This document shows, one piece after another, positions 3 through 32,155 of a stretch of DNA of 40,416 bases (the stretch's first letter is position 1; the number at the start of each line of letters is the position of its first letter). The DNA is from Mycobacterium sp. 1423905.2 (lineage in GTDB: Bacteria; Actinomycetota; Actinomycetes; Mycobacteriales; Mycobacteriaceae). A program made the position numbers and the translations under genes. The notes under the pieces are model-generated. The model saw only the letters and a list, made by a program, of their open reading frames with translations, was not told the DNA's origin and did not search any database. The DNA is taken from positions 1 to 40,416 of the forward strand of contig NZ_LZLE01000018.1 of assembly GCF_001673155.1 (NCBI RefSeq), read 5' to 3'.

Positions 3-302
3 ATGCGGAACGGATTGCGCCGCTGGGTGGCCAACACCGAGACCACGATCCGGTGGTCGGATTCGACTCGGGCGGACTGGGATCGGCATCTGCGCCCGAT
101 GCTGGCGCGGCGATTCGAGATCGCCACCGGCCAGCGGCTCACCAAAGATCCGGCCGCTTTCGCCGCGACCGGGCGGATGCTGTTCGGGCCGGCCCTGTGG
201 GAATGGGTGAACCCGAACAACGTCACCCACGCCCGAGACCAGCGACCAGGACCCGGGCGCGCGACGTTGGAAGAAATTCTGCAACGGCTAGAGCAGGTAT
301 GA
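3..302 (+). CDS. C-terminal part of an unrecognised protein upstream of moxR
   Basis: The frame is open from the left edge to a TGA at 300-302 and gives 99 residues. It probably starts outside the window, although an ATG lies at position 3. The visible part is soluble in character, rich in Arg, Trp and Asp, with no membrane segment and no motif I can name. By position it corresponds to Rv3165c of M. tuberculosis, a protein of unknown function of about 160 residues just upstream of the MoxR/DUF58 pair. It ends 28 bp before the moxR start on the same strand, so cotranscription is likely. No function is assigned. Confidence 0.6.
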   Translation: MRNGLRRWVANTETTIRWSDSTRADWDRHLRPMLARRFEIATGQRLTKDPAAFAATGRMLFGPALWEWVNPNNVTHARDQRPGPGRATLEEILQRLEQV

Positions 303-20213: not shown

Positions 20214-20624
20214 CTACAGCGCGGGCGCCCGAAGCAGGTCCAGCACTGTCCGGCCCAGCACGATGGGGTCGAGGGGATGCGGCACCGCCGCCTCGGCGCG
20301 TGACCAGCTGGCCAACCAGGCGTCGTCCGGACGGCCGGTGAGCACCAGAATCGGTGGGCAGTCCGTCAACTCGTCCTTGAGCTGTTTGGCGATCCCCATG
20401 CCTCCGGTCGGCGACGCTTCTCCGTCCAGGATGGCCAAGTCGATGCCACCTTCGTCCATCGTCTGGATCACCATCGGTCCGGTTGCCACTTCCACGTAGC
20501 TCAACTCGGGCAGGTCGGGATGCAGCTGCTTGCCCAAAGCCCGCATCACTTCTTCGCGAGTCTGAACGTTGTCGCTGTAGACCAGGATTCGCAGGTGGTC
20601 GGAGTTGGCGCTGGAATCGGGCAC
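20214..20624 (-). CDS. Atypical response-regulator receiver-domain protein
   Basis: This is a stand-alone receiver (CheY-like) of 136 residues from GTG 20624. An ATG at 20663 would add 13 residues and overlap the preceding gene. The putative phosphoacceptor is Asp67 in AILDGEA and the switch Thr is Thr96 in LVLTGRPDD. Only one acidic residue, Asp18 (YSDN), is seen where an acidic pair is usual, and the position of the invariant lysine is His116 (VPHPLDP). No output domain follows. It therefore may be phosphorylated poorly or work without phosphorylation. It is the likely counterpart of Rv3143, and it is the last gene of the long leftward operon, 10 bp after the YceI-like gene. Confidence 0.8.
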   Translation of the reverse strand: MPDSSANSDHLRILVYSDNVQTREEVMRALGKQLHPDLPELSYVEVATGPMVIQTMDEGGIDLAILDGEASPTGGMGIAKQLKDELTDCPPILVLTGRPDDAWLASWSRAEAAVPHPLDPIVLGRTVLDLLRAPAL

Positions 20625-20634
20625 GGTGCAGATG

Positions 20635-21192
20635 CTACTGGTAAGTGCTCGGCTCTCGGGCACCCGCTGGTTCGAAGATCAATTCGGCCGCCACCTTTGC
20701 CGTCTCGCTGACCATCCCGGCTTTGTTCCAGTTCACCCCGAACTTGGCGCGGTCGAGCTGGCCTTCCCCGGCGATCCGCACCGAGCCGTCATCGAACTCG
20801 GTGACGGTCACGGGAAACGCCACCGATTCGGTGTTGCCCTTGATGGTGAACCGGGCCTGCAGATCGGCTCCCCGGCCTGCGGTGGGCTGTAACCCGGTGA
20901 CCTCGACGCTGATCTGCGGGAAGCGTTCGGCGTCGAAGAAGTCGGCGGAGAGCAGGTGCTTGTCGCGCCGGCGGATGCCGGTGTCGATCGAGGCGACGCG
21001 GATGTCGACCCGGCCCGATACCGCGCCGCCGTCGGCCAGTTCGCCGGCTGCGCTGAACTCGGTCCACTTGCCTTTGACGTTCACCAGGCCCCACATGTTC
21101 CTGATCTTGAAGGTGATGGTCGACCGATCGGGCACCAGGGCCCAGGCCCCGGCCGCGTCGGGGTCTCGCAACAAGGTCTCCAGCGTGGTCAT
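20635..21192 (-). CDS. YceI-like lipocalin-fold protein
   Basis: The 185 residues match the YceI-like domain: an opening strand WALVPDRSTITFKIRNMWGLVNVKG, then GRVDIRVASIDTGIRRRDKHLLSADFFDAERFPQ-type sequence near residues 60-95, and a C-terminal LIFEP. YceI proteins are beta-barrels that bind long isoprenoid or amide-type lipids. Many are periplasmic, but this one has no signal peptide and so looks cytoplasmic. The ATG overlaps the SnoaL-like gene stop by 4 bp. It might carry a hydrophobic substrate or product of the operon, but that is inference. Confidence 0.85.
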   Translation of the reverse strand: MTTLETLLRDPDAAGAWALVPDRSTITFKIRNMWGLVNVKGKWTEFSAAGELADGGAVSGRVDIRVASIDTGIRRRDKHLLSADFFDAERFPQISVEVTGLQPTAGRGADLQARFTIKGNTESVAFPVTVTEFDDGSVRIAGEGQLDRAKFGVNWNKAGMVSETAKVAAELIFEPAGAREPSTYQ

Positions 21193-21593
21193 CGGGTGCT
21201 CTCTAGCAGGGGGGCGATGTCGGCGGGGTCGAAGTATTCGTCGATTCGGTTGATCAGACCATCCGCATCGAGCTTGATGACGATGCAGACGCGCATGGAG
21301 ATTGATTGTGCTGCATGCCCCGTCGCATGCAAAAGGTGCTGCTGGACAAAGCCCGCCACACCGGCGTCGTCGAACAGTTGTCGGTCGAGTATCTCGTAAC
21401 GGCGGTCGCTGGTGGCCGAGACGAACCAGTCGATGACCCGCAGCGCCCGCGCCTTGTCATTGTCCCGACGGGTGCCGACTCGCCACACCAAAATGTCGTC
21501 GCTCCACAGCCGGGCAACGGCCGCCACGTCGCTGCGCTCGATCGCAGTGAACAGCCGGTCGGCCACCTCGAGGATGATGCTCCTAGTAGGCAT
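21189..21593 (-). CDS. SnoaL/NTF2-like protein
   Basis: This encodes 134 residues with the cone-shaped alpha+beta NTF2-like pattern: an N-terminal helix ILEVADRLFTAIERSD, then LWSDDILVW, and a C-terminal strand ending KLDADGLINRIDEYFDPADIAPLL, which is typical of SnoaL-like polyketide cyclase or isomerase relatives. Members act on varied ketone or steroid-like substrates, or have no known activity, so no reaction can be assigned. It sits 11 bp after the DUF6285-type gene and overlaps the YceI-like gene by 4 bp. Confidence 0.8.
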   Translation of the reverse strand: MPTRSIILEVADRLFTAIERSDVAAVARLWSDDILVWRVGTRRDNDKARALRVIDWFVSATSDRRYEILDRQLFDDAGVAGFVQQHLLHATGHAAQSISMRVCIVIKLDADGLINRIDEYFDPADIAPLLESTR

Positions 21594-21604
21594 GGCGCTG
21601 ACTC

Positions 21605-21946
21605 CTATTCGCTGTCGTATCCGGGATGAGCGATCGCCAACCGATGCCGCACCAGCGTGCGCAGACAGGCGACCACCTCGCCGGCGCGTCCGTCGAGCTC
21701 ACCGGCTCGGATTGCCGCGGCGAGCGCGGCCTCATCGGGGTAGCCCACCTCGGCAAGTGGTGCGACGAAGTCGTGGGCGGACAACAGTTCGCGTTGCACC
21801 ATGCGCAACGCGTTGGCCGCGACCCTGGCATGAAAGTTGACCTGTCCCTCGGTCGCCGCCCGCACATCGCCTTCTAAGAATTCGGCGACTGCCGCGACCA
21901 ATTCGGCCGCCGTCGGGCGTCCGTGCAGCGCATCGCCGGTTGTCAT
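21605..21946 (-). CDS. DUF6285-type small protein paired with an APH-fold kinase
   Basis: The protein is a 113-residue, mostly helical, Ala-rich product from ATG 21946, which overlaps the kinase stop by 4 bp. The pattern (PTAAELVAAVAEFLEGDV near the N-terminus, then FHARVAANALRMVQREL, then LVRHRLAIAHPGYDSE at the end) resembles the small protein commonly encoded right after acyl-CoA-dehydrogenase-associated phosphotransferases in actinobacteria, which I remember as DUF6285. No catalytic residues are recognisable. It may be an accessory subunit of the kinase. The name is from memory and should be treated as moderate. Confidence 0.7.
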   Translation of the reverse strand: MTTGDALHGRPTAAELVAAVAEFLEGDVRAATEGQVNFHARVAANALRMVQRELLSAHDFVAPLAEVGYPDEAALAAAIRAGELDGRAGEVVACLRTLVRHRLAIAHPGYDSE

Positions 21947-22917
21947 GCGCTGGCCCTCTCGTCGAGCAGAGTGAGTAGGTCCCATTCCGTTTCACACACC
22001 CGCCGGCCAATGGTGGCCAACTCCACCGAGCGGGCCTGTCCGCTCAGGTGTCGTTCGGCCTGATGCCGGCAGATGATGCCCCAGCGCAGCGTGGCGAGCA
22101 CCAGCCACCAGTGAAACGCCCCCCGGTCGACGGCAGTGGTGCTGGCCTCCTCGTAGGCCTGCAGGAAAGTTTCGATGCTGCCCAGCCCGCCCGCGCCGCG
22201 GCTGACCGGGGCGCCGAAACGCCAGGCTCGGATACAGAACCAGGCCAGGTCTTCATAAGCAGTGCCGACGTGAACCAGCTCCCAGTCGAGCACCGCGGCC
22301 AGATTCGACCTGTCGACAATGAGGTTGCCCATCCGAAAATCGCCGTGTACCAACACCGCCGACGCTGGCGGCGGTCGATGAGCCGCCAGCCAACGGAATG
22401 CCCACTCGAAGGTGGCGGTGGTGTCGCCCATGGCGTCGAGTCGCTCGCGCCATTGGCCTAGTTGGTCGTCGCGTTCCAGGCTGGGATCGGTCGTGTCGGC
22501 ACGATGGATGGCTGCCAGCGCTTGCGCGCACTGGCGCAGCAGCCGCTGGCGCCCGGCTTCGTCGAGTTGACGTTCGATGCGGCGGACGATGGTCTCGCCC
22601 TTGATCTCCGCGCAGATGAGGAATGGATTGCCCAGGGCGGCAGGTGAATCCGATGCAGTGAGGATGTCGGGTACCGGCGCTCCGGCCGCCGCGGCGGCGG
22701 CCTGCACGCGCGCCTCCAACTCCATTCCGGCGTGGACGTCATCGGGCGGGCCGATCCGCAAAATCAATCCTCGGCGCTGGGCACCGGTTACGGCGTCAAA
22801 CGCCCACGTGCTGCGGCTCGCACCACCGGTCAACGCGCGCAGATTCTCGACTGCGACCTGCTCGCCGAGTACGGATCGCAGCACGGCCGGCAGGCGCTCG
22901 GACAAATGTGTGGTCAC
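21943..22917 (-). CDS. APH-fold phosphotransferase associated with an acyl-CoA dehydrogenase
   Basis: The 324-residue protein has an aminoglycoside-phosphotransferase/choline-kinase fold. The catalytic loop VHGDFRMGNLIVD places the base at Asp193 and Asn198 nearby, and the metal-binding DWE follows at Asp211 (LDWELVHVGTAYEDL). An N-terminal glycine loop (TGGASRSTWAF) is present at residues 30-40. Drug resistance is unlikely: the gene lies directly after an acyl-CoA dehydrogenase. The same two domains are fused in animal ACAD10/ACAD11, where the kinase domain phosphorylates 4-hydroxyacyl-CoA. A similar role here is inference. The start is GTG 22917, in a GTGA overlap with the dehydrogenase stop. 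Confidence 0.88.
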   Translation of the reverse strand: MTTHLSERLPAVLRSVLGEQVAVENLRALTGGASRSTWAFDAVTGAQRRGLILRIGPPDDVHAGMELEARVQAAAAAAGAPVPDILTASDSPAALGNPFLICAEIKGETIVRRIERQLDEAGRQRLLRQCAQALAAIHRADTTDPSLERDDQLGQWRERLDAMGDTTATFEWAFRWLAAHRPPPASAVLVHGDFRMGNLIVDRSNLAAVLDWELVHVGTAYEDLAWFCIRAWRFGAPVSRGAGGLGSIETFLQAYEEASTTAVDRGAFHWWLVLATLRWGIICRHQAERHLSGQARSVELATIGRRVCETEWDLLTLLDERASA

Positions 22918-24152
22918 TTTTTACCAAACCTGAACAGCCGCTGCGCGACTCGACGCATCTGGATTTCTTCGGCGCCCTCGGTGATGCGGTAGCGGCGGTG
23001 ATGGCGGTAGATGTGTTCGAAAGGCTCGTGGCGGCTGTAGCCCACCCCGCCGAACACCTGCATGGCTCGGTCGGCGGCGTCGCACACCAGCCGATTGGCG
23101 CGATAGTTCGCCATCGCCACCTTGTCGGAGACCTCCATATGGTGGTTGCTGTCCAAATGCGCGGCGGCGTAATACACCAACAGCCGCACCATCTGCGCCT
23201 CCGTCTGCAATTCGACCAGCGGCCACTGTACGGCTTGGTTGACCGACAGCGGTTTTCCGAAGACGTGCCGTTGCCCGGCGTATTCGACCGCGCGGTCGAT
23301 GCAGTACTGGGCGGCGCCCAGGCTGCTGGCCGCTTGCCGAATCCTGTTCTCGTGCAGGAAGGTTTGGCCGACCTCCAGCCCGCGGTCCACCTCGCCGAGT
23401 ACCGCTTCCTCGGGCACCCGGACGTCGGTCAGTTCGACTTCCCCGTGATCGGTCGGCATGTTGAAGGTCCACCAGTAGTAGGGCACGGCGAACCCCGGGG
23501 CGTCGGTGGGCACCAGGAACGCGGTGATGCCCAGCGGGTGTCCCGGTTCGCCGGAGGTGCGGGCGAAGACCAGATCGTGGGTGGCACGATGCACACCGGT
23601 GTTGAACCGTTTGACGCCGTTGATGATCCAGCCATCGCCGTCTCGTTCGGCGCGGGACTCCAACCAGGTGGCGTCCGACCCGTGGTTGGGTTCGGTCAGC
23701 CCAAAGGCCATCGACCGCTTACCGGTGATCAGAGCCTCGATCCACTCGGCTTTCTGCGTGTCGGTGCCGAACCGGTCCATCATGATGACCTGAGGAAAGT
23801 TGCCCACGATAGAGGACTCGTTCTGCAGGTCGTTGTGCAGCCCGAGGCCTCTGTGCGCCAAGTGTTCCCGGATGACGGCCATGTCGATGTTGGTGCCGTC
23901 GCGGCCCCCGAACTGTGCCGGCAGGCCATAGCGCAACCAGCCCGCCCGGTCGGCGCGTCGGCGCATTTCGCTGAGTAGGTCTTCCCACTCCGCACGCGGA
24001 ACCCCGTCGTTGTCCCAGTCGGTGCGGGCGTGTTCTCGGCGCTTGTCGAAGTACTGGATGTGCTCGCGTTCCAGCGGCTTGATCTCGGTCTCGATGAACT
24101 CGTCCATCTCCGCAAGGACGTTCGGAAGATGTTCCGGCAGAGCGAAATCCAC
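22914..24152 (-). CDS. Acyl-CoA dehydrogenase
   Basis: This is a 412-residue acyl-CoA dehydrogenase that oxidises acyl-CoA with FAD and passes electrons to ETF. It shows the FAD/substrate motif FGLTEPNHGSDATWLESRAE near residues 150-169, WIINGVKRFNTG, and near the C-terminus VFGGVGYSRHEPFEHIYR followed by RITEGAEEIQ. In that last motif Glu392 aligns with the catalytic base of medium-chain enzymes. The overall character is that of the ACAD10/11-like subgroup (long N-terminal WLRYGLPAQFGGRDG region). The start is GTG 24152 with GGAG just upstream, 9 bp after the TetR stop. The substrate is unknown. Confidence 0.9.
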   Translation of the reverse strand: MDFALPEHLPNVLAEMDEFIETEIKPLEREHIQYFDKRREHARTDWDNDGVPRAEWEDLLSEMRRRADRAGWLRYGLPAQFGGRDGTNIDMAVIREHLAHRGLGLHNDLQNESSIVGNFPQVIMMDRFGTDTQKAEWIEALITGKRSMAFGLTEPNHGSDATWLESRAERDGDGWIINGVKRFNTGVHRATHDLVFARTSGEPGHPLGITAFLVPTDAPGFAVPYYWWTFNMPTDHGEVELTDVRVPEEAVLGEVDRGLEVGQTFLHENRIRQAASSLGAAQYCIDRAVEYAGQRHVFGKPLSVNQAVQWPLVELQTEAQMVRLLVYYAAAHLDSNHHMEVSDKVAMANYRANRLVCDAADRAMQVFGGVGYSRHEPFEHIYRHHRRYRITEGAEEIQMRRVAQRLFRFGKK

Positions 24153-24161
24153 GGTGACTCC

Positions 24162-24794
24162 TTAAGCGCCGTAAAGGGTTTTCTTCCAGACGGTGGATAG
24201 GGTGGCGATGGCGTCTTCGTCGGTCATCGCGACACCGAGCCCACTGTGGCCCGACGTCCCGACGAAGACGGTGGTGAAGTTTTCGAACAGCAGCGCGATG
24301 GCGGCCGCGGTGTGTTCCGGGTGCAGCTCGTCGCCGTACCCGTGTTCTTGGGCGCGGCGGACGGACGCAGCCACCACGTCCATGCCGAATCGACGGAATC
24401 GGTTCTGCACAGCGGCGAAGCGTTGTTTGGTGGCGGCGAGCTGGGCGACCGCGATCATGATGCCGATGTTCTGTTTGAACATGTTCCAATAGCCGGTGAC
24501 CACCGAGGTGAAGAAGGCATCGTCGTGAGGCGAGTCCGGCAGTCGCACGTTCGAACCCGACGGTGTCACGACGTCGTCGAGGAAGGACTGTGCCAGCGCG
24601 GCCAGCAGGTCTTCCTTGTCGGTGAAGTAGCGGTAGAACACCGCCGAGGACTTGCCCGCCGCGGAGGTGATGTCCGCCAAGGTCGTGCCGTGGAAGCCCC
24701 GTTCCGCGAACAGCTTTCGCGCTGCCTGTTCGATCGCCTCTCGGGTCTGGCGGCCTTTGGCGCTGAGCGTTCGCGGTGCCTGGGGGGTCGACAT
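24162..24794 (-). CDS. TetR-family transcriptional regulator inside the catabolic operon
   Basis: The protein has 210 residues from ATG 24794, whose first base is shared with the upstream lyase stop (TGATG). The N-terminal helix-turn-helix is clear at about residues 14-62: ARKLFAERGFHGTTLADIT then SAAGKSSAVFYRYFTDKEDL. The C-terminal domain is helical, with a ligand-binding pocket of unknown specificity. Being embedded between the lyase and the acyl-CoA dehydrogenase, it would be produced together with the enzymes, as expected for feedback repression that an acyl-CoA intermediate might relieve. The interleaved palindromes upstream of the first gene are a candidate operator. A longer frame upstream runs inside the lyase gene and is rejected. 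Confidence 0.88.
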   Translation of the reverse strand: MSTPQAPRTLSAKGRQTREAIEQAARKLFAERGFHGTTLADITSAAGKSSAVFYRYFTDKEDLLAALAQSFLDDVVTPSGSNVRLPDSPHDDAFFTSVVTGYWNMFKQNIGIMIAVAQLAATKQRFAAVQNRFRRFGMDVVAASVRRAQEHGYGDELHPEHTAAAIALLFENFTTVFVGTSGHSGLGVAMTDEDAIATLSTVWKKTLYGA

Positions 24795-25687
24795 CAGGTG
24801 CGAATCCGGTCCCCGGCACGCAACACGGCGCTGGGTAACTCGTGGCCGACCACCGATTGCGCGACCCGGGCCGCCGTGACGGCGGCCTGCAGATCGACGT
24901 CCACATCGATATCGCTGTCGGTCAACAGATAGACCAGGTCCTCGGTGGCGATGTTGCCGGTGGCACCCGGGGCGAACGGGCATCCACCCAGCCCGCCAAC
25001 CGAGGCGTCCAATCGGGTGACTCCCGCACTGACCGCCGCGTAGGCGCTGGCCAACCCCGATCCGCGGGTGTTGTGGAAGTGTCCGCCGAGTGGCAGGTCT
25101 CCGATCACCGGACGAAGTTGCGCGATCAGCGAACTCACTCGTCCGGGGGTGGCGGTGCCAATGGTGTCGGCGATCGAGAACCGGTCCGCTACCTGGTCGC
25201 GCGCGGCCGCGCCAATATCGAGGACCCGCTGCGGGGGTGTCGGTCCGTCGAATGGACAATCCCACGCGGTAGCGACGATGACCTCGACGGTGGCGTCACC
25301 GTCGTGAGCGATCGCAACGATGTCGCTGATCTGTTTGACGGCCTCGGCGCTGTTGCGTCCGACGTTGGCTTTGCTGAACGCGTCGCTGGCGGCCACCACG
25401 TACTCGATTGAGCGCAGCCCGGCCGCAATCGCCCGGCGCGCGCCGTTGGGACTGGCCACCAGTGCGGAGAATTCGATATCGGGGTAGTGGTGCAATTCGG
25501 CTGCGAGTTCTGCCGCGTCGGCCATCGACGGCACCTTCGACGGCGAGACGAAGGCGGTGGCCTCCACTTCACGAACTCCGGTGGCCGCGACCGCGGCGAG
25601 TAACTCCAGTTTGGCCGACAACGGAATCGGCTTTTCGATCTGCAGGCCGTCGCGCAGCGACACCTCGCGGATGTCGACGTGAGTCAT
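24794..25687 (-). CDS. Hydroxymethylglutaryl-CoA lyase-like aldolase
   Basis: This DRE-TIM metallolyase of 297 residues would cleave a 3-hydroxy-3-methyl (or similar) acyl-CoA to acetyl-CoA and a keto acid. Catalytic Arg12-Asp13 lie in SLRDGLQIEKP, the metal-binding pair is His203 and His205 (GGHFHNTRG), and the active-site loop is GGLGGCPFAPGATGN with Cys236. These match true HMG-CoA lyases well. Related enzymes use longer or different acyl-CoAs, so the substrate is open. It overlaps the CoA-transferase stop by 4 bp and the TetR start by 1 bp. With CoA-transferase and dehydrogenase neighbours, it probably performs the carbon-carbon cleavage of the pathway. Confidence 0.88.
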   Translation of the reverse strand: MTHVDIREVSLRDGLQIEKPIPLSAKLELLAAVAATGVREVEATAFVSPSKVPSMADAAELAAELHHYPDIEFSALVASPNGARRAIAAGLRSIEYVVAASDAFSKANVGRNSAEAVKQISDIVAIAHDGDATVEVIVATAWDCPFDGPTPPQRVLDIGAAARDQVADRFSIADTIGTATPGRVSSLIAQLRPVIGDLPLGGHFHNTRGSGLASAYAAVSAGVTRLDASVGGLGGCPFAPGATGNIATEDLVYLLTDSDIDVDVDLQAAVTAARVAQSVVGHELPSAVLRAGDRIRT

Positions 25688-26898
25688 AGCACCTCCTCGG
25701 CGCGCAGCGCTGCGATCTCCTCGGCGGTCTTGCCCAACAGACCAAGGTAGACCTCGTCGTTGTGTTGGCCGGGACGCGCGGGTCCGGCGGAGCGGACGCG
25801 GCCAGGGGAGTCCGAAAGCACCGGCACGACGCCGGGTCCGAGCACCGGGCGGCCGATCCGTTCGTCGTAGTGTTCGACGAGCATGTCGCGGGCCCGCAGT
25901 TGTGGATCGTTGACCACTTCGGCGACGGTGTTGATCGGCCCGGCGATCACGCCTGCGGCGCTGAGGGTTTCGATGATTTCACAGGGCTCCCGTTCGGCGG
26001 CCCAAGCGCCGATGATGATGTCGAGTGCGTCCTGATTGCGTCCACGCGCGCCATGGGTCGCGAACCGCTCGTCGATAGCCAATTCGGGACGGTCCATGGC
26101 CTGGCATAGGCGCGCGAACACGGTGTCCTGGTTGGCCGCGATCACCACCCAGGAGTTGTCCGCGCTGCGGTAGATGTTCGACGGCGCAATGCCTTCCAGC
26201 CTGGTGCCCGACGGTCCGCGCACCACACCGCCGACGTCGTAATCCGGGATCGTGGATTCCTGCACTGCCAGACACGACTCGGTCAACGCGACGTCGACCA
26301 CCTGGCCACGTCCCGTCACGGTGCGGCGATACAGCGCGGCCAACGCGCCTTGGGCGCCGAACATGCCGGCCAAGGTGTCACCCAGAGACAGGGCCAGCCG
26401 CGGCGGGGGACCACCCGGGAAACCGTTGAGGTGACGCAGTCCGCTGGCCGCCTCGGCGACCGAGGCGTATCCGGCCTTGTGTGCGTCGGGGCCGGTCTGG
26501 CCGTATCCAGAGACGCGGACCAGAATGATGCCCGGGTTGCGTTCGCTCAGCACGTCGTAGCCGAGATTCCAGCGCTCCAGCGTCCCGGGGCGGAAGTTCT
26601 CCACGATGATGTCGGATTGCTCCACCAGTTCCAGGAACAGTTCGCGTCCGCGCGGTCGGCGCAGATCCAGTGTGACGGCCCGTTTGTTGCGGGCGTGCAC
26701 GGTCCAAAACACGCGCTCGCCGTCGACTTCGGCCTGCCCCCAGGTGCGCAGCGGGTCCGGTGCACCGGGCGGCTCCACCTTGATGACGTCGGCGCCCATG
26801 TCACCGAGCAGCCTGCCGGCGAACGGACCGGCAATCAGCGTGCCCAGTTCGAGTACCCGAATGCCGTCCAGCGGCCCGGTCGGTTGATCCGCCGTCAC
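25684..26898 (-). CDS. CaiB/BaiF (class III) CoA-transferase
   Basis: The 404-residue protein belongs to the family III CoA-transferases, which move CoA between acids through an aspartyl-CoA thioester. The opening GIRVLELGTLIAGPFAGRLLGD-type stretch, VKVEPPGAPDPLR, the NKRAVTLDLR segment, VENFRPGTLERWNLGYD and the catalytic Asp174 in LALSLGDTLAGMFGAQGALAAL are all present. Its likely job is to activate the organic acid handled by this operon as a CoA thioester. The GTG at 26898 overlaps the hydrolase stop in GTGA. Donor and acceptor are unknown. Confidence 0.9.
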   Translation of the reverse strand: MTADQPTGPLDGIRVLELGTLIAGPFAGRLLGDMGADVIKVEPPGAPDPLRTWGQAEVDGERVFWTVHARNKRAVTLDLRRPRGRELFLELVEQSDIIVENFRPGTLERWNLGYDVLSERNPGIILVRVSGYGQTGPDAHKAGYASVAEAASGLRHLNGFPGGPPPRLALSLGDTLAGMFGAQGALAALYRRTVTGRGQVVDVALTESCLAVQESTIPDYDVGGVVRGPSGTRLEGIAPSNIYRSADNSWVVIAANQDTVFARLCQAMDRPELAIDERFATHGARGRNQDALDIIIGAWAAEREPCEIIETLSAAGVIAGPINTVAEVVNDPQLRARDMLVEHYDERIGRPVLGPGVVPVLSDSPGRVRSAGPARPGQHNDEVYLGLLGKTAEEIAALRAEEVL

Positions 26899-28082
26899 TC
26901 GAGCCTCGCAAACTCGCGCAGCGTCAGCCAGTCGGTGACGATCTCGACGGCCTGCCGCAGCTTGTCGCGCTGGTCAGGTCCGGCGTAATAATGGGTCGCG
27001 CCAGGGATCTCGTACATCTCCTTGTCGGGATGCCCGATGGCTTCGAAGAGCCGACGGGTGTGGCTGGGTGTGCAGGCGTCATCGGCCAGATTACCGATCA
27101 CCAACGCCGGGATCGCAAGGTCACGTCCGCATGCCACGCCGTCGCCACGGGCGTCGTCGTAGCTCCACTGGGAGAGCCAGCCGCGCAGCGTCGAAAACCT
27201 TGCCAGCCCAACTGGACTCATGTTGACCACTTGTGGATCACCCAAGTAGCAGGTGTTCGGGGCGCGTTCGTTGGGATCGACGGCGGGGTCCAGCCAGCGC
27301 GGGTCGGCCATGGTGCCGTGTACGACGAAGCCGAACTCGTCGTTCGGGCGGCCCGCGGCCCTCAATTCCGCGAGCTTGCCTTTGACCCAGGCGGTGATGC
27401 GCCTATTGCGGTCGATCTGCGCCTGGCGGTACCGGTTTAAGAACTCCGGGGTGTAGGGCGGTCGGTTGGGGTTGTCGGGGTTGTACAGATCCAGCTCAGT
27501 GTCGCGTTGGGCGGGATCGGACTCGTCGAGGATCGATGCGTCCAGCCATTCGGTCAGCGTGCCGTGGCGGCTGACATGGGCGGCCAGGAGCATGATGGCG
27601 TCGGCCGGGGGCAGGTCAAGTGCGGTGAGGTCGGGGCCGTCACCGGATGGACTGCAGGTGATGGTCGGGTGTTGTGCCTGTTGTTGGTAGAAAAGCGACA
27701 GCGACCCGCCGCCACTCCATCCGGCCAGCACCACTTTCTGGTAGCCGAGGCGGTTTTTGGCGTCCTTGATGCATTCGCCGAGGTCCTCGACCACCTTCTC
27801 CATGAGCAGCGCCGAGTCGTTGCCGCGAAACCGGCTGTTGCAGTAGATGACATGGTGCCCGGCCCGGGCCAGCGCGGTGATCATCGGCAGGTAAGCACCA
27901 CCGCCGATCGGGTGCATGAACACCAGCACGGTGTCCGAGGGCTTGTCTCGGGGCTTGAGCAGGAAACTCTCCAGCACGGTGATTTCCGCCAGCCCGCCGT
28001 AGACGTCCCGAACGCCCGAATTATTCTGGAAAGCAACGAGATAGGGGATTCGATCGTAGTCGTACTTCGCGGCTCCGGCCAT
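26895..28082 (-). CDS. Alpha/beta-hydrolase
   Basis: From ATG 28082 (MAGAAKYDYDRIPYL), one base shared with the cupin stop, this encodes 395 residues. The nucleophile elbow is GWSGGGS with Ser123. LVFMHPIGGGAY near residues 53-64 forms the oxyanion side, and the C-terminal acid and His lie around LADDACTPSHTRR and PGATHYYAGPDQRDKL. No signal peptide is seen, so it is cytoplasmic. A longer in-frame extension upstream is Arg/Pro-rich shadow translation of the preceding gene. It may hydrolyse an ester, a lactone or the ring-cleavage product of the neighbouring dioxygenase. Which of these is not determinable. Confidence 0.85.
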   Translation of the reverse strand: MAGAAKYDYDRIPYLVAFQNNSGVRDVYGGLAEITVLESFLLKPRDKPSDTVLVFMHPIGGGAYLPMITALARAGHHVIYCNSRFRGNDSALLMEKVVEDLGECIKDAKNRLGYQKVVLAGWSGGGSLSLFYQQQAQHPTITCSPSGDGPDLTALDLPPADAIMLLAAHVSRHGTLTEWLDASILDESDPAQRDTELDLYNPDNPNRPPYTPEFLNRYRQAQIDRNRRITAWVKGKLAELRAAGRPNDEFGFVVHGTMADPRWLDPAVDPNERAPNTCYLGDPQVVNMSPVGLARFSTLRGWLSQWSYDDARGDGVACGRDLAIPALVIGNLADDACTPSHTRRLFEAIGHPDKEMYEIPGATHYYAGPDQRDKLRQAVEIVTDWLTLREFARLE

Positions 28083-29173
28083 CAGTGTTGTCCTAGATCG
28101 TGGTCCAGCACCTCGGGCGAGGGTGTCAAGCGGCGGCGGGTGTCGATGGCGATGACCTGCCAGTCGACTCGGGCGTAATCGTCGAACTTGCGGCGTGCTC
28201 GCTCCCGCGCCTTTTCCGGTGCGCCGTGGTGAACCCCTTGCGGCGCATGGGATATAAGCCCGGGCGGCATCGGGATGCCGTAGAGCGAGCCACCGTGGAA
28301 AAACGCGATCTCGTCGTAATCGACGTTGCGGTGATACCAAGGGGTGCGTTCGGTGCCGGGCAGGCCTTCGGCGGGCTTGGGCAGGAAGTTCATCACATAG
28401 ACCCCGGTAGCCTGCATGAACAGATGCACCGTGGGTGGCAGGTGGACGCTGTCGGAGGTGACGACGTTGTAATCGGCGATGTTGAAGGTGAACGCGAAGT
28501 TGTCACCGCGCCACCCTTCGACGTCGATCGGATGATGTTGATAAAACAGCGATGTCGGACCACCCTCGTGTATCAACCGCACCTCGTACTCGTCGCGGCC
28601 ATCGTCGTCGAGGGGAGTCGGTTCCGGGATGGTGACTTGCGACGGGTCGAACGGGAAGTGCCGGCCCAGCGGGCCGGGCGGCGGGACCCGGAACTCGTCG
28701 GAGGACTCGACCATGAGCAGGGTGGTTTGTTGTTCGGGAACCTGTCGCCAGGTGCACGCCTTGGGCAGGTAAACCCAGTCGCCCTCGCCGTAGCGCAGCG
28801 AGCCGAACTCGGTTTCCAGCAGTCCAGCGCCCTGGTGCACGAAGCACAGCAGGTCGCCGTCGACGTGACGGACGTGCCACGGCATCGGTTCACCGCGGCG
28901 GCTCAGCGACACGCGGCAGTCGGCGTTACTGAACAGCAGTAGCGGTCCACCGGTGGCGTCGGTGGCATCGGTGGGTTTGAGTTCGCCGGCCAGCACGTCG
29001 ACGGGTCGCAGCGTCCCGACCGATCGGTAGGCGGTGGGGTCGTGTCGGCGGTAGAGGTTGGCGGTCCGTCCGGTAAAGCCGCCGCGGCCCAGCTCGTCGT
29101 CCTTGAGACCGTCGAGGTCGGCATGCAGCCGCCGCGGTGTTCTGCCTTTGCGCAGGTGGACGAAGGATTCCAT
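28082..29173 (-). CDS. Homogentisate 1,2-dioxygenase-like cupin
   Basis: The 363-residue protein has the bicupin architecture of homogentisate 1,2-dioxygenase: an N-terminal cupin around HVRHVDGDLLCFVHQGAG (residues 100-117) and EGDWVYLPKACTWRQ, and a C-terminal cupin with TPWYHRNVDYDEIAFFHGG. His281 and Glu288 look like iron ligands, and the third is probably one of the histidines in ISHAPQGVHHG (309-316). It is shorter than typical homogentisate dioxygenases (about 430 residues), and no fumarylacetoacetase or maleylacetoacetate isomerase is nearby, so the substrate may be another gentisate- or homogentisate-like diol. The ATG at 29173 has GGAG nearby. It is the first gene of the leftward operon. 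Confidence 0.82.
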   Translation of the reverse strand: MESFVHLRKGRTPRRLHADLDGLKDDELGRGGFTGRTANLYRRHDPTAYRSVGTLRPVDVLAGELKPTDATDATGGPLLLFSNADCRVSLSRRGEPMPWHVRHVDGDLLCFVHQGAGLLETEFGSLRYGEGDWVYLPKACTWRQVPEQQTTLLMVESSDEFRVPPPGPLGRHFPFDPSQVTIPEPTPLDDDGRDEYEVRLIHEGGPTSLFYQHHPIDVEGWRGDNFAFTFNIADYNVVTSDSVHLPPTVHLFMQATGVYVMNFLPKPAEGLPGTERTPWYHRNVDYDEIAFFHGGSLYGIPMPPGLISHAPQGVHHGAPEKARERARRKFDDYARVDWQVIAIDTRRRLTPSPEVLDHDLGQH

Positions 29174-29202: not shown

Positions 29203-29228
29203 AACTAAAAGTGACATTAGTTTCACTT
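29203..29228 (-). promoter_or_regulatory. Two interleaved palindromes over the dioxygenase operon promoter
   Basis: AACTAA (29203-29208) pairs with TTAGTT (29217-29222), and AAGTGA (29209-29214) pairs with TCACTT (29223-29228). The order is A-B-CA-A'-B', two overlapping 6-8-6 palindromes shifted by 6 bp. On the minus strand TAATGT (29219-29214) fits a mycobacterial TANNNT -10 box, with TTGTGC (29243-29238) 18 bp upstream as a weak -35. The palindromes therefore cover the -10 box, as expected for a repressor operator. The TetR encoded in the operon is the natural candidate. Confidence 0.55.
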
Positions 29229-29266
29229 CTGTATGGCGCACAAGGGTTGGCGGTACTGCCCGCGGA

Positions 29267-30238
29267 TCAGTCCCGGATGCGCAACACGACTTTGCCTTTT
29301 GCGCTGCGGTTCTCCAGCGACGCGATCGCGGCAGCGGCTTGGTCCAACGGATAGACCACGGGTTCGGGCGGGGAAAGCTTGCCGGAGCTGAGCAACTCCT
29401 CCAATGCGGCCCACTGCTCGGTCAGCGCACCGGGGTGCGTTCCGGTCCACGCTCCCCAGCCAACACCGACGACATCAATGTTGTTGAGCAGCAGACGATT
29501 TACCTTGACGGTGGGAATTTCGCCACCGGTGAAGCCGACGACGAGCAGTCGACCGCCGGGCGCGAGCGAGCGCAGCGAATCGGTGAACCGGTCACCGCCG
29601 ACCGGGTCCACCACGATGTCGACCCCTCGGCCACTGGTCAACTCCTTGACCGTGTCTTTGAATCCGTCGGCCAGTACCACGTCGGTGGCCCCCGCCGCGG
29701 TGGCGATGTCTCCCTTTTCCTCGGTGCTCACCACGGCGATGACGCGCGACGCGCCCAGCACGGAGGCCAGTCGCAATGCCGAGGTACCGATGCCACCGGC
29801 CGCGCCATGGACCAGCACCGCCTCACCGGCGCGCAATCGGCCCCGCTCGGTCAGCGCGAAGTACACGGTCAGGTCGTTGAACAGCACCCCGGCGCCCGCC
29901 TCGAAGCTGACATTGTCGGGCAGCTTGAAGGTGCGGTCCGGTGCGAGAATTGCAACCTCGGCCATGCCGCCGGTGAGCATGGTCAGCCCGACTACCCGGT
30001 CCCCGGGTCGCACGTGCGAGTCGTCCGGTGCCGAGCGGACCACTCCGGCGATCTCGGCGCCCAGCACAAACGGCGGGTCGGGCCGGTACTGATAGAGCCC
30101 GCGGGTGAGCAGCGCATCGGGGAAGGCGACCCCGGCCGCCTGCACCTCGACGACGACACCGTCGCCACTGGGTTCGTCAACCTCGGTCACCTCGACCGCG
30201 TCTGGACCATCGAGCCGAGTCACCCGTGCCGCGCGCAT
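29267..30238 (-). CDS. fadB4: FadB4, quinone-oxidoreductase-type MDR dehydrogenase/reductase
   Basis: This is a zinc-free medium-chain dehydrogenase/reductase of 323 residues, nearly identical in layout and length to FadB4 (Rv3141) of M. tuberculosis as I recall it. The NADPH-binding loop VLVHGAAGGIGTSALRLA-type motif lies near residues 143-160, and the quinone-reductase signature is around FNDLTVYFALTERGRLRAGE. GGAGGT (30247-30242) precedes ATG 30238. Despite the fadB symbol it is not a typical hydroxyacyl-CoA dehydrogenase by sequence; the substrate is unproven. It lies 37 bp after the related MDR gene, so the two probably form one transcript. Confidence 0.92.
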   Translation of the reverse strand: MRAARVTRLDGPDAVEVTEVDEPSGDGVVVEVQAAGVAFPDALLTRGLYQYRPDPPFVLGAEIAGVVRSAPDDSHVRPGDRVVGLTMLTGGMAEVAILAPDRTFKLPDNVSFEAGAGVLFNDLTVYFALTERGRLRAGEAVLVHGAAGGIGTSALRLASVLGASRVIAVVSTEEKGDIATAAGATDVVLADGFKDTVKELTSGRGVDIVVDPVGGDRFTDSLRSLAPGGRLLVVGFTGGEIPTVKVNRLLLNNIDVVGVGWGAWTGTHPGALTEQWAALEELLSSGKLSPPEPVVYPLDQAAAAIASLENRSAKGKVVLRIRD

Positions 30239-30275
30239 GCCACCTCCGTTGTCGAGAAACCCCGGTCGCCTCAAT

Positions 30276-31274
30276 CTAGAACCCGTCGGCGACCCGCACC
30301 ACAGCACGCCCGGTGAAGGCGCCTTCGCGTAGTTGGTCGAGCACGCCGACAACGTCCTTCACGTCGACCTCCGTGGTGATCTCGGCCAAATGGCGGGGCC
30401 GCAGCGAGTCACCCAGACGTGCCCACAACTCGCGTCGCGGACCGATGGGTAGCTGAACCGAGTCCATGCCCAACAAGGCAATGCCACGCAGAATGAATGG
30501 CATCACCGTGGTGTGCAGGGCCGGGCCGCCGGTCAACCCGCTGGCGGCTACCGCGCCGCGGTAATCGATGGCGCTGAGCACGGCGGCGAGGGTGGCCCCG
30601 CCGACGCAATCCACCGCGCCGGCCCAGCGGGTCTTGGCCAGCGGCCGCGGCTTGGCGTCGGGGTCGGCGGGCAGCCGACCGATAACCTCTGCCGCGCCAA
30701 GCTGTTTCAAGCGTTCCGCGGCCTCGGTCTTGCCCGTGGACGCCACCACCTGATAGCCGGCGCCGGCCAACAAGTCCACGCTGACCGTGCCGACCCCACC
30801 GGAGGCGCCGGTCACGACGACCGGGCCGGCGTCGGGCCGTACGCCCCAGTCGATCAGAGCCTGCACGCTCATCGCCGCGGTGAAACCGGCCGTACCGATG
30901 GCCGCACCTTCCCGCGGGTCCAGCGCGCCCAGCGCTACCACCTGGTCGGCGGGTAGTCGGGCGTATTCGGCGTAACCGCCGTGATGGCCCGTCCCGATTT
31001 GATACCCGTGGGCCAAGACGTGGTCACCGACCGCGAACTCCGGTGACTGGGACTCGACCACCTCACCGGTGAGGTCGATGCCCGGCACCACCGGATAGTT
31101 GCGCACGACGCCGCCGCCGGCGGTCAACGCCAGTGCGTCTTTGAAGTTGGCACTGGAATACAGCACCCGGATTGTCACCTCGCCGGGCGGGAGATCCGAG
31201 CGGTTCAGGTTCTCGACCGACGCGGTGATCCGGTCCTCGTCTTGGCGCGCCACCAGCGCACGAAACGTATCCAT
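30276..31274 (-). CDS. YhdH/YhfP-type MDR oxidoreductase (acrylyl-CoA-reductase-like)
   Basis: The 332 residues from ATG 31274 (MDTFRALVARQ) show the YhdH/YhfP pattern: LYSSANFKDALALTAGGGVVR, then PGIDLTGEVVES, a nucleotide-binding VVTGASGGVGTVSVDLLA and the distinctive MPFILRGIALLGMDSVQLP. E. coli YhdH (AcuI) reduces acrylyl-CoA with NADPH, so a small-enoyl-CoA reductase role is plausible here. No catalytic zinc ligands are seen. Its start codon is only 23 bp from the divergent aldo/keto reductase start. An upstream ATG at 31313 would overlap that gene and is less likely. Confidence 0.9.
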   Translation of the reverse strand: MDTFRALVARQDEDRITASVENLNRSDLPPGEVTIRVLYSSANFKDALALTAGGGVVRNYPVVPGIDLTGEVVESQSPEFAVGDHVLAHGYQIGTGHHGGYAEYARLPADQVVALGALDPREGAAIGTAGFTAAMSVQALIDWGVRPDAGPVVVTGASGGVGTVSVDLLAGAGYQVVASTGKTEAAERLKQLGAAEVIGRLPADPDAKPRPLAKTRWAGAVDCVGGATLAAVLSAIDYRGAVAASGLTGGPALHTTVMPFILRGIALLGMDSVQLPIGPRRELWARLGDSLRPRHLAEITTEVDVKDVVGVLDQLREGAFTGRAVVRVADGF

Positions 31275-31285
31275 GCCTCCGACGC

Positions 31286-31291
31286 TAACCT
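31286..31291 (+). promoter_or_regulatory. Possible -10 box for a leaderless aldo/keto reductase transcript
   Basis: TAACCT fits the mycobacterial TANNNT -10 consensus. It ends 6 nt before the ATG at 31298, the spacing expected when transcription begins at the start codon. There is no Shine-Dalgarno sequence in front of this ATG, which agrees with a leaderless mRNA. A single hexamer match is weak evidence on its own. Confidence 0.4.
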
Positions 31292-31297
31292 CATGCC

Positions 31298-32155
31298 ATG
31301 GATTCCTTCGCACTCGGTCGCTTCACCGTCGCCCGTATCGGCTTCGGCGCAATGCAATTGCCCGGCCCGGGCGTCTTCGGGCCACCCCGGGATCGTGACG
31401 AGGCGCTGGCCGTGCTGCGTCGGGCGGTCGAACTCGGGGTGAACCACATCGACACCGCCCAGTTCTACGGGCCCGACGTGGCTAACGAACTCATCCGCGA
31501 GGCGCTGCACCCGTACCCACACGACTTGGCGTTGGTGAGCAAGGTGGGCGGGCGCCGTGATGACGGGGGAGCCTGGCTGCCGATCGTCGATCCCGACGAC
31601 TTGCGCCGCGACCTCGAAGCCAACTTGCAGACGCTCGGTGTGGACCAGTTGGCGGCGGTGAACCTGCGCCTGATGGACAGCGAGGGGCCGGATCAGCGCT
31701 TCGACGATCTGCTGGCAGTGATGATCAACGCCCGCGACGAGGGGTTGATCGGTGCCATCGGGCTCAGCGAAGTGACTCGCGACCACCTCCTGCACGCTCT
31801 CGAGCAGACCGAAATCGCTTGTGTGCAAAACGCTTTCAACCTCGTCGACCGGTCCTCGGCCCCGGTGCTACAGGAGTGCAGCGCGCGCGGTATCGCCTTC
31901 GTCCCGTTCTTCCCACTCGGGTCGGCGTTCGGAGAGACCAATCCGGTGCTGGGCAACGAGGTTGTTCAGCGCACGGCCGCCCAGCTGGGCCGTACGCCCG
32001 CCCAGGTCGCGTTGGCGTGGACATTGGGCGTGGCGCCCAATGTCCTGCTGATCCCGGGAACGTCGTCGGTCAGACACCTCGAGGAGAACATGGCGGTCGC
32101 CGATATCAAACTCGACGACGACACCCGCGAGCAGCTCAACGCCGTCGCGGCCTGA
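31298..32155 (+). CDS. Aldo/keto reductase with substituted catalytic histidine
   Basis: The protein is a 285-residue TIM-barrel aldo/keto reductase. Three of the four catalytic residues are clear: Asp52 and Tyr57 (HIDTAQFYGPD) and Lys82 (LVSKVGGR). The usual His falls at Asn122 in AAVNLRLMD. NADPH contacts are seen in LIPGTSSVRHLEENM near residues 251-265. Loss of the His may alter substrate range or slow carbonyl reduction. The stop overlaps the GNAT start (TGATG), and the downstream genes make acetoin, so reduction of diacetyl, acetoin or a similar ketone is possible but unproven. Confidence 0.9.
   Translation: MDSFALGRFTVARIGFGAMQLPGPGVFGPPRDRDEALAVLRRAVELGVNHIDTAQFYGPDVANELIREALHPYPHDLALVSKVGGRRDDGGAWLPIVDPDDLRRDLEANLQTLGVDQLAAVNLRLMDSEGPDQRFDDLLAVMINARDEGLIGAIGLSEVTRDHLLHALEQTEIACVQNAFNLVDRSSAPVLQECSARGIAFVPFFPLGSAFGETNPVLGNEVVQRTAAQLGRTPAQVALAWTLGVAPNVLLIPGTSSVRHLEENMAVADIKLDDDTREQLNAVAA

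Follow-up and report, generated by a model that had tools for sequence, protein, structure and literature searches.

What might a mycobacterium degrade with a gene run that combines a ring-opening type of dioxygenase with a CoA-transferase, a kinase and an HMG-CoA-lyase-like aldolase, and is this run one pathway or several? The question is raised by a locus of Mycobacterium sp. 1423905.2, located in the window analysed here (the whole 40-kb contig NZ_LZLE01000018.1, 40,416 nucleotides; G000:C18). Our preferred answer, to which we give a probability of about 0.45, is that eight genes of this locus form an operon with one promoter-like site and its own TetR repressor, which would degrade a hydroquinone-type aromatic acid to acetyl-CoA. 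Judged from sequence, the operon would be a novel assembly, and a variant, of kinds of enzymes already known.

Ten minus-strand genes lie between 20635 and 29173, neighbours overlapping by 1 or 4 bp or being separated by 9-11 bp. The first eight encode a homogentisate dioxygenase (HGD)-like cupin (28082..29173, 363 aa; HgmA_N, 29.3 bits), an alpha/beta hydrolase (26895..28082, 395 aa; Pfam Abhydrolase_1), a class III CoA-transferase of the CaiB/SUGCT-like type (25684..26898, 404 aa; CoA_transf_3, 411.8 bits), an aldolase of the HMG-CoA lyase family (24794..25687, 297 aa; HMGL-like in Pfam), a TetR-family regulator (24162..24794, 210 aa; TetR_N, 59.4 bits), an acyl-CoA dehydrogenase (ACAD; 22914..24152, 412 aa; N, M and C domains of Pfam), an APH-fold kinase resembling ACAD10/11 and LvaA (21943..22917, 324 aa; APH, 122.1 bits) and a small DUF6285 protein (21605..21946, 113 aa; 79.4 bits). 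They are followed by two frequent additions, a SnoaL-like (21189..21593; SnoaL_2, 35.3 bits) and a YceI-like protein (20635..21192; YceI, 117.9 bits). The cupin and hydrolase genes share 1 bp (TGATG at 28082), hydrolase and caiB 4 bp, caiB and the aldolase gene 4 bp, and the aldolase gene and tetR 1 bp; after a 9-bp gap between tetR and the ACAD gene, 4 bp are shared by ACAD and APH and again by APH and DUF6285, and an 11-bp gap then precedes the SnoaL gene, which shares 4 bp with the YceI gene. All ten exceed the curated Pfam cut-offs (scanned with the longer 481-aa frame of the hydrolase and a 126-aa frame of DUF6285).

Relatives of the cupin were scanned in named genomes, and the best 80 of the 303 found, ranked by cupin similarity, were taken with their flanks, a sample skewed to close relatives. 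The core (cupin, hydrolase, CaiB, HMG-CoA-lyase-like aldolase, TetR, ACAD, APH kinase and DUF6285) has identical order and strand in all 73 complete loci; in the remaining seven the locus end falls inside the core. SnoaL, YceI and the receiver-like frame that follows them in the window were found in 61, 57 and 65 of the 80 loci, respectively, and none of the three in 6 of the 69 complete loci that extend at least 2.5 kb past DUF6285. Among 198 genomes of the genus, the cupin was present in 176 and DUF6285 in 184 (both in 175, the cupin only in 1, DUF6285 only in 9, neither in 13), and the presence of the two is linked (Fisher 8.6e-14, uncorrected for kinship). The 175 are cases of co-presence in a genome, with contiguity checked in a part of them; two of the cupin matches counted are weak or partial (G169 and G202), and two negatives (G326 and G330) were picked out from the genomes not listed by eliminating the others. 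Beyond the close relatives, the core set is often partial.

The initial annotation had described eleven genes as one operon with overlaps of 1-8 bp or gaps under 12 bp. Its gene families were recovered for ten of the eleven; the exception is the receiver-like frame (20214..20663, minus strand), whose Response_reg score is marginal (18.5 bits, cut-off 30.2) and which was dropped as a member of the pathway. The spacing also holds for the ten genes, but not for the junction of YceI and the receiver-like frame, which share 29 bp when the first GTG is taken as the start. The frame is probably a neighbouring gene outside the pathway and may be a degenerate receiver. With this frame marginal and SnoaL and YceI optional, eleven genes no longer stand as a unit; what survives of the operon is a single run with its own conserved promoter-like site, of which the unit is the eight-gene core. 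The suggested comparison across genomes agreed with co-conservation, and the objection that these families might rarely travel together does not apply to close relatives, although distant sets are often partial. The eight-gene run is thus a real conserved operon in the sense of its gene order, and probably one under single regulation.

A block upstream of the cupin is conserved in an alignment of 79 rows (78 loci and the window). It contains a promoter-like pair of hexamers on the minus strand, TTGTGC (29238..29243) and TAATGT (29214..29219), with a spacer of 18 in the window and of 17 in 72 of 80 loci. The pattern TTGNNN-16..19-TAANNT occurs before the cupin in 80 of 80 loci versus 15 of 4000 windows drawn at random from these loci, a comparison in which the pattern was written after the alignment had been seen and the random windows may include the site itself. 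A generic sigma-70 promoter scan gave no hits clearly better than those in shuffled sequence, and it did not pick up the conserved site. The second hexamer is overlapped by a palindromic operator candidate (29203..29224, minus strand; arms AACTAA and TTAGTT), the core of which, AATGTCACTTTNAGTT, lies 41-66 bp ahead of the cupin start codon in 75 of 80 loci, with at most two mismatches; by eye, the other five have a degenerate palindrome in the same place. The expected number of matches of the core in window shuffles is 0.01, and the home genome has one exact and one two-mismatch match, as compared to two matches of the reversed control pattern.

In two loci (L200 and L202) other genes stand between tetR and the lyase gene, and a second copy of the palindrome with three mismatches lies about 75 bp before the tetR match. 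We infer that such a copy before the displaced tetR is what autoregulation by the operon's TetR would leave; it suggests that TetR is probably the repressor of the operon, acting on the candidate palindrome. A three-mismatch scan of 31 loci including these two gave no match in 26, and in the remaining three (L237-L239) it recovered the copy at the promoter. The conserved block of L237 and L238, where the matches to cupin, hydrolase and tetR are gone, is now ahead of caiB, with a short cupin remnant between them; the remnants (L237:14389-14700 and L238:5180-5480) are evidence that the upper module was lost. No copy of the palindrome turned up in the three-mismatch scan of L234 and L236, from which the same genes are missing.

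The residues of the cupin resemble those of ring-opening dioxygenases. H281, E288 and H316 do not vary among the 18 sequences aligned, which cover the window-type and HPPD-linked groups, and in an alignment to a solved HGD (3zds) H281 and H316 fall on H331 and H367, with E288 one column off E337; we take this region to represent the 2-His-1-carboxylate iron ligands of HGD. The score against the hmgA equivalog (TIGR01015) is 47.7 bits, below the cut-off of 510.75, and many close relatives are publicly named ‘homogentisate 1,2-dioxygenase’. For relatives at 35-45% identity in other members of the phylum, HPPD is a neighbour at 12 of the 22 loci fetched, 11 of which also contain an FAA-hydrolase match (4 of the 4 HPPDs tested were above the HPPD equivalog cut-off), and 3 of 7 cupins at 36-38% identity in Mycobacteriaceae have HPPD within 1.5 kb. 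Short HGD-like cupins with HPPD, and often with FAA hydrolase, occur in L213-L217, L221, L223, L225-L228, L232, L163, L166 and L168; that of L225, the only one scanned, reached 74.9 bits against the hmgA cut-off. These HPPD-linked short cupins are probably homogentisate dioxygenases of a clade that the hmgA model does not cover. For the cupin of the window, a putative role in ring opening is supported by gene neighbours and residues. The homogentisate pathway (HPPD, HmgA and FAH) is similar in its HgmA_N cupin, in the invariant ligand positions and in the relatives near HPPD and FAA hydrolase; it differs in that the cupin of the window has about 360 aa and adjoins an alpha/beta hydrolase rather than HPPD, an isomerase or FAH.

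The hydrolase accompanies the cupin in all 16 loci fetched from the family Mycobacteriaceae (L194-L209), with or without CaiB and lyase, and the pair recurs at 36% and 37% identity in another class (L211). In L204, L206 and L208 it is preceded by an HpaB-type hydroxylase and an ACAD-fold protein. The motifs GWSGG and A-x-HYY are present in 79 of 79 hydrolases, and Foldseek matched a structure model (predicted local distance difference test, pLDDT, 65.4) to generic lipase, esterase and dehalogenase folds, HsaD also being among the matches and the best match being the monoglyceride lipase of M. tuberculosis (15% identity). The home genome contains a hydrolase paralogue of 39% identity (G000:C160:5576-6502; L351), and about 1-2 kb from it an ACAD-fold gene that matches both the ACAD of the operon and the HpaB-linked one at 28-37%.

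The CoA-transferase is identified at the superfamily level (CoA_transf_3); its best NCBIfam model, succinate-glutarate CoA-transferase (NF052585), gave 252.8 bits, less than the equivalog cut-off of 750. The aldolase passes the HMG-CoA lyase subfamily model NF004283 (272.4 bits, cut-off 246) and shows the motifs RDGLQ, H-F/L-HN and GGLGGCP in 78 of 78 loci, the last presumably the active-site Cys loop and H-F/L-HN the metal-binding HxH of HMG-CoA lyase. It is the sole carbon-carbon cleaving enzyme downstream in the operon, and cleavage of this type suggests that its probable substrate carries a hydroxyl on a tertiary carbon 3, i.e., is a beta-branched acid. Compared to known SUGCT/HMGCL chemistry, the adjacency of the CaiB and lyase genes and the motifs of the lyase, which is above the HMG-CoA-lyase cut-off, are alike; unlike are the CaiB, far under the SUGCT equivalog, and the setting of the pair in a dioxygenase-kinase operon.

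In the kinase, the motifs HGDxRxGN and DWE are present in 75 of 75 sequences, and solved ACAD11 is among the structural relatives matched. DUF6285 is found beside or fused to APH in other genera and is likely an LvaB-like kinase partner; LvaB itself we take to be a DUF6285 protein. The ACAD of the window type has Glu at the catalytic position in 77 of 77 sequences. The ACAD motif could be read in 26 of 30 DUF6285 loci, with Glu in 25 of them (the window included) and Asp in 1, and DUF6285 adjoins dehydrogenases that are LvaC-type by motif or similarity in L253, L264, L271 and L279. According to published reports, LvaA and LvaB phosphorylate 4-hydroxyvaleryl-CoA, LvaC eliminates the phosphate with partial rehydration to 3-hydroxyvaleryl-CoA, and mammalian ACAD10/11 carry out both steps (PMC6692424, PMC11342911, PMC12440821); Asp and an HCMR motif are given there for the LvaC/ACAD10/11 dehydrogenase (PMC12440821). 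The operon shares with the lva operon of Pseudomonas putida (LvaABCDE) and with ACAD10/ACAD11 a kinase with an intact motif, a small putative partner (113 aa in the window; 12 kDa for LvaB) and an ACAD, in one operon in the case of lva, but lacks LvaD (a short-chain dehydrogenase/reductase) and LvaE (a ligase) and adds CaiB and the HMG-CoA-lyase-like enzyme. The kinase half of the LvaABC chemistry fits the operon by this analogy; the dehydrogenase half is uncertain.

From these enzyme kinds we infer the order of the steps and each of the reactions. The HGD-like cupin would open a dihydroxylated ring with O2, the alpha/beta hydrolase would split the ring-opened product, and CaiB would load CoA from a donor acyl-CoA such as succinyl-CoA. 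A hydroxyl of the acyl-CoA might then be phosphorylated by the APH kinase with DUF6285, as with LvaA/LvaB, and the phosphorylated (or plain) acyl-CoA be converted by the ACAD via an unsaturated to a branched 3-hydroxyacyl-CoA, which the HMG-CoA-lyase-like enzyme would cleave to acetyl-CoA and a keto acid or ketone. The initial annotation had proposed one coherent pathway with a phosphorylation step, distinct from any described. We retain the catabolic make-up but not the linear order. The set is composite, with modules that also occur apart; phosphorylation has its precedent in LvaAB and ACAD10/11, but the ACAD of the window is without the residues reported for LvaC. As to novelty, no matching description was found among the openly licensed papers listed, judged by title or abstract start: there were no papers on DUF6285 or the full gene set, and those on LvaC together with mycobacteria were unrelated by title.

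Several observations weigh against an operon that degrades one aromatic acid from ring to acetyl-CoA. The core is modular, and each of its two parts, cupin-hydrolase and CaiB-lyase-dehydrogenase-kinase-DUF6285, also occurs in the absence of the other. Of 20 loci fetched from other genera, 12 have the ACAD-APH-DUF6285 triad (with a divergent ACAD in one of them, L263) but no match to cupin, hydrolase, CaiB or lyase, and in L197, L203 and L205-L209 the cupin-hydrolase pair is present whereas CaiB, lyase and kinase are missing; since the modules part in several genomes, they may serve different substrates. Elsewhere in the class, none of 17 HMGL relatives at about 50% identity (L297-L313) has a match to CaiB in the flanking 1.5 kb or so. 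The operator candidate is kept without tetR in L237 and L238, i.e., the site outlived its regulator. The operon includes no transporter, CoA ligase, hydratase or ring hydroxylase genes, the structure model of the cupin is too poor for use (pLDDT 41.7), and the generic fold of the hydrolase does not fix which bond is cut. HPPD above the cut-off was found neither in the home genome nor in 192 of the 198 genus genomes (above it in 6; a weaker match in 197); tyrosine-derived homogentisate is therefore an unlikely substrate and, obvious as it seemed, was dropped. Finally, the ACAD of the window lacks the catalytic Asp and the HCMR of LvaC/ACAD10/11, with QAAS at the HCMR position and, eight residues before it, Phe in place of an arginine (R626 in mouse ACAD11 by manual count). 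With Glu for Asp and no HCMR, LvaC-type phosphate elimination is therefore unsupported by the residues, and Glu and QAAS rule out membership in LvaC; the enzyme may act as a plain dehydrogenase, or it may be a substitute for LvaC that works with glutamate.

More speculatively, CaiB, kinase, DUF6285, ACAD and lyase may represent a new route for beta-branched acids, joined in mycobacteria to a ring-opening dioxygenase and with the Glu-type ACAD in the role of LvaC. The 4-hydroxyl would be phosphorylated and shifted by the ACAD to carbon 3, giving a tertiary alcohol that would block beta-oxidation and that the HMG-CoA-lyase-type aldolase could cleave to acetyl-CoA. A locus of another genus of the same family, L264, contains TetR, CaiB (62%), lyase (53%), SnoaL (33%, between lyase and ACAD), an LvaC-type dehydrogenase (32%) carrying HCMR and Asp, and an APH-DUF6285 fusion, with no cupin in its 20 kb; the same functional set thus exists there with another dehydrogenase in the position of the ACAD. 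Its single gene run (L264:4283-10250) is the clearest locus for the putative kinase-lyase route.

If the modules are independent, the operon might consist of two half-pathways with one regulator and separate substrates, cupin-hydrolase for an aromatic compound and CaiB-HMGL-ACAD-APH-DUF6285 for a branched or 4-hydroxy acid, which we consider doubtful. We inspected seven genomes in which DUF6285 is present and the cupin signal is weak or absent (five of the nine with DUF6285 only, G169 and G202). In G169, G205, G245 and G326 the five-gene part survives the loss of cupin, hydrolase and tetR matches, and in two of these genomes (those of L237 and L238) the promoter-operator precedes caiB across the cupin remnant; the loci with cupin-hydrolase alone and the cupin-free second module of L264 agree with such a division. 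The other three genomes do not split along the module border: of the core, G085 keeps ACAD-APH-DUF6285 only (plus SnoaL and YceI), G301 retains tetR and part of the hydrolase, and G202 retains everything except most of the cupin. Moreover, a hydrolase relative adjoins CaiB in 3 of the 12 loci L327-L338 (the distant L334, L335 and L337), CaiB and HMGL follow cupin-hydrolase in L204, which has no kinase, and loss of the upper part can equally leave a lower pathway that is fed by another entry.

A disguised homogentisate pathway, in which the cupin is a true HGD, the hydrolase stands in for fumarylacetoacetase, acetoacetate is activated by CaiB and the remaining genes are auxiliary, would agree with the HPPD and FAA-hydrolase neighbours of the 35-45% relatives and with the public names of the close ones, and hydroxyphenylacetates could still supply homogentisate where HPPD is scarce; yet it leaves lyase, kinase and dehydrogenase without a role, the cupin scores far under the hmgA cut-off, and together with the scarcity of HPPD this makes it improbable. 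A different link between ring and branched chain is suggested by three of the four genomes of one family (f80), in which relatives of cupin (47-50%), CaiB (34-38%) and hydrolase (51-52%) lie within about 10 kb (L347-L349 and L354-L356); the one annotated, L349, has a P450, an acyl-CoA ligase, an enoyl-CoA hydratase and a fused double ACAD (one half IpdE2-like) among them and menA/menE nearby. The operon might thus turn over a prenylated quinol or isoprenoid-tailed phenol, the CoA part cutting the branched side chain and the cupin opening the ring. Because this concerns a single family with low CaiB identity, the men genes may be chance neighbours and the operon of the window lacks those extra genes, we regard it as very improbable. 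Aminoglycoside resistance, or another non-catabolic function of the APH gene, is hardly credible: the APH fold would allow it, but the best score reached 46.6 of 205 bits, far below all resistance-family cut-offs shown (none was passed, and resistance was dropped), ACAD11 is among the solved relatives and DUF6285 is the partner.

Outside the operon, one flank consists of a PPE gene and of NADH:quinone-oxidoreductase-type genes (one scanned), presumably ‘nuo’. On the opposite flank, two zinc-type dehydrogenase genes (29267-31313, same strand), one of which we take to be FadB4-like, lie upstream of the operon, parted from it by a 93-bp gap that holds the conserved promoter-like site; relatives of the first were found in 61 and relatives of the second in 59 of the 80 loci, with the second gene in the opposite orientation in five loci or more.

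Cupin and DUF6285, the end genes of the operon, co-occur in 175 of the 198 Mycobacterium genomes sampled, and titles and abstract starts of the openly licensed papers listed gave no functional description for it. If the proposed pathway is true, it would point out a class of substrates on which environmental mycobacteria live, and short enzymes resembling homogentisate dioxygenase would form an additional clade. Kinase-dependent chemistry on hydroxy acids, as carried out by LvaABC and ACAD10/11, would extend to a pathway with HMG-CoA-lyase cleavage at its end, and the glutamate of the ACAD raises the question of whether a kinase-linked dehydrogenase needs the aspartate.

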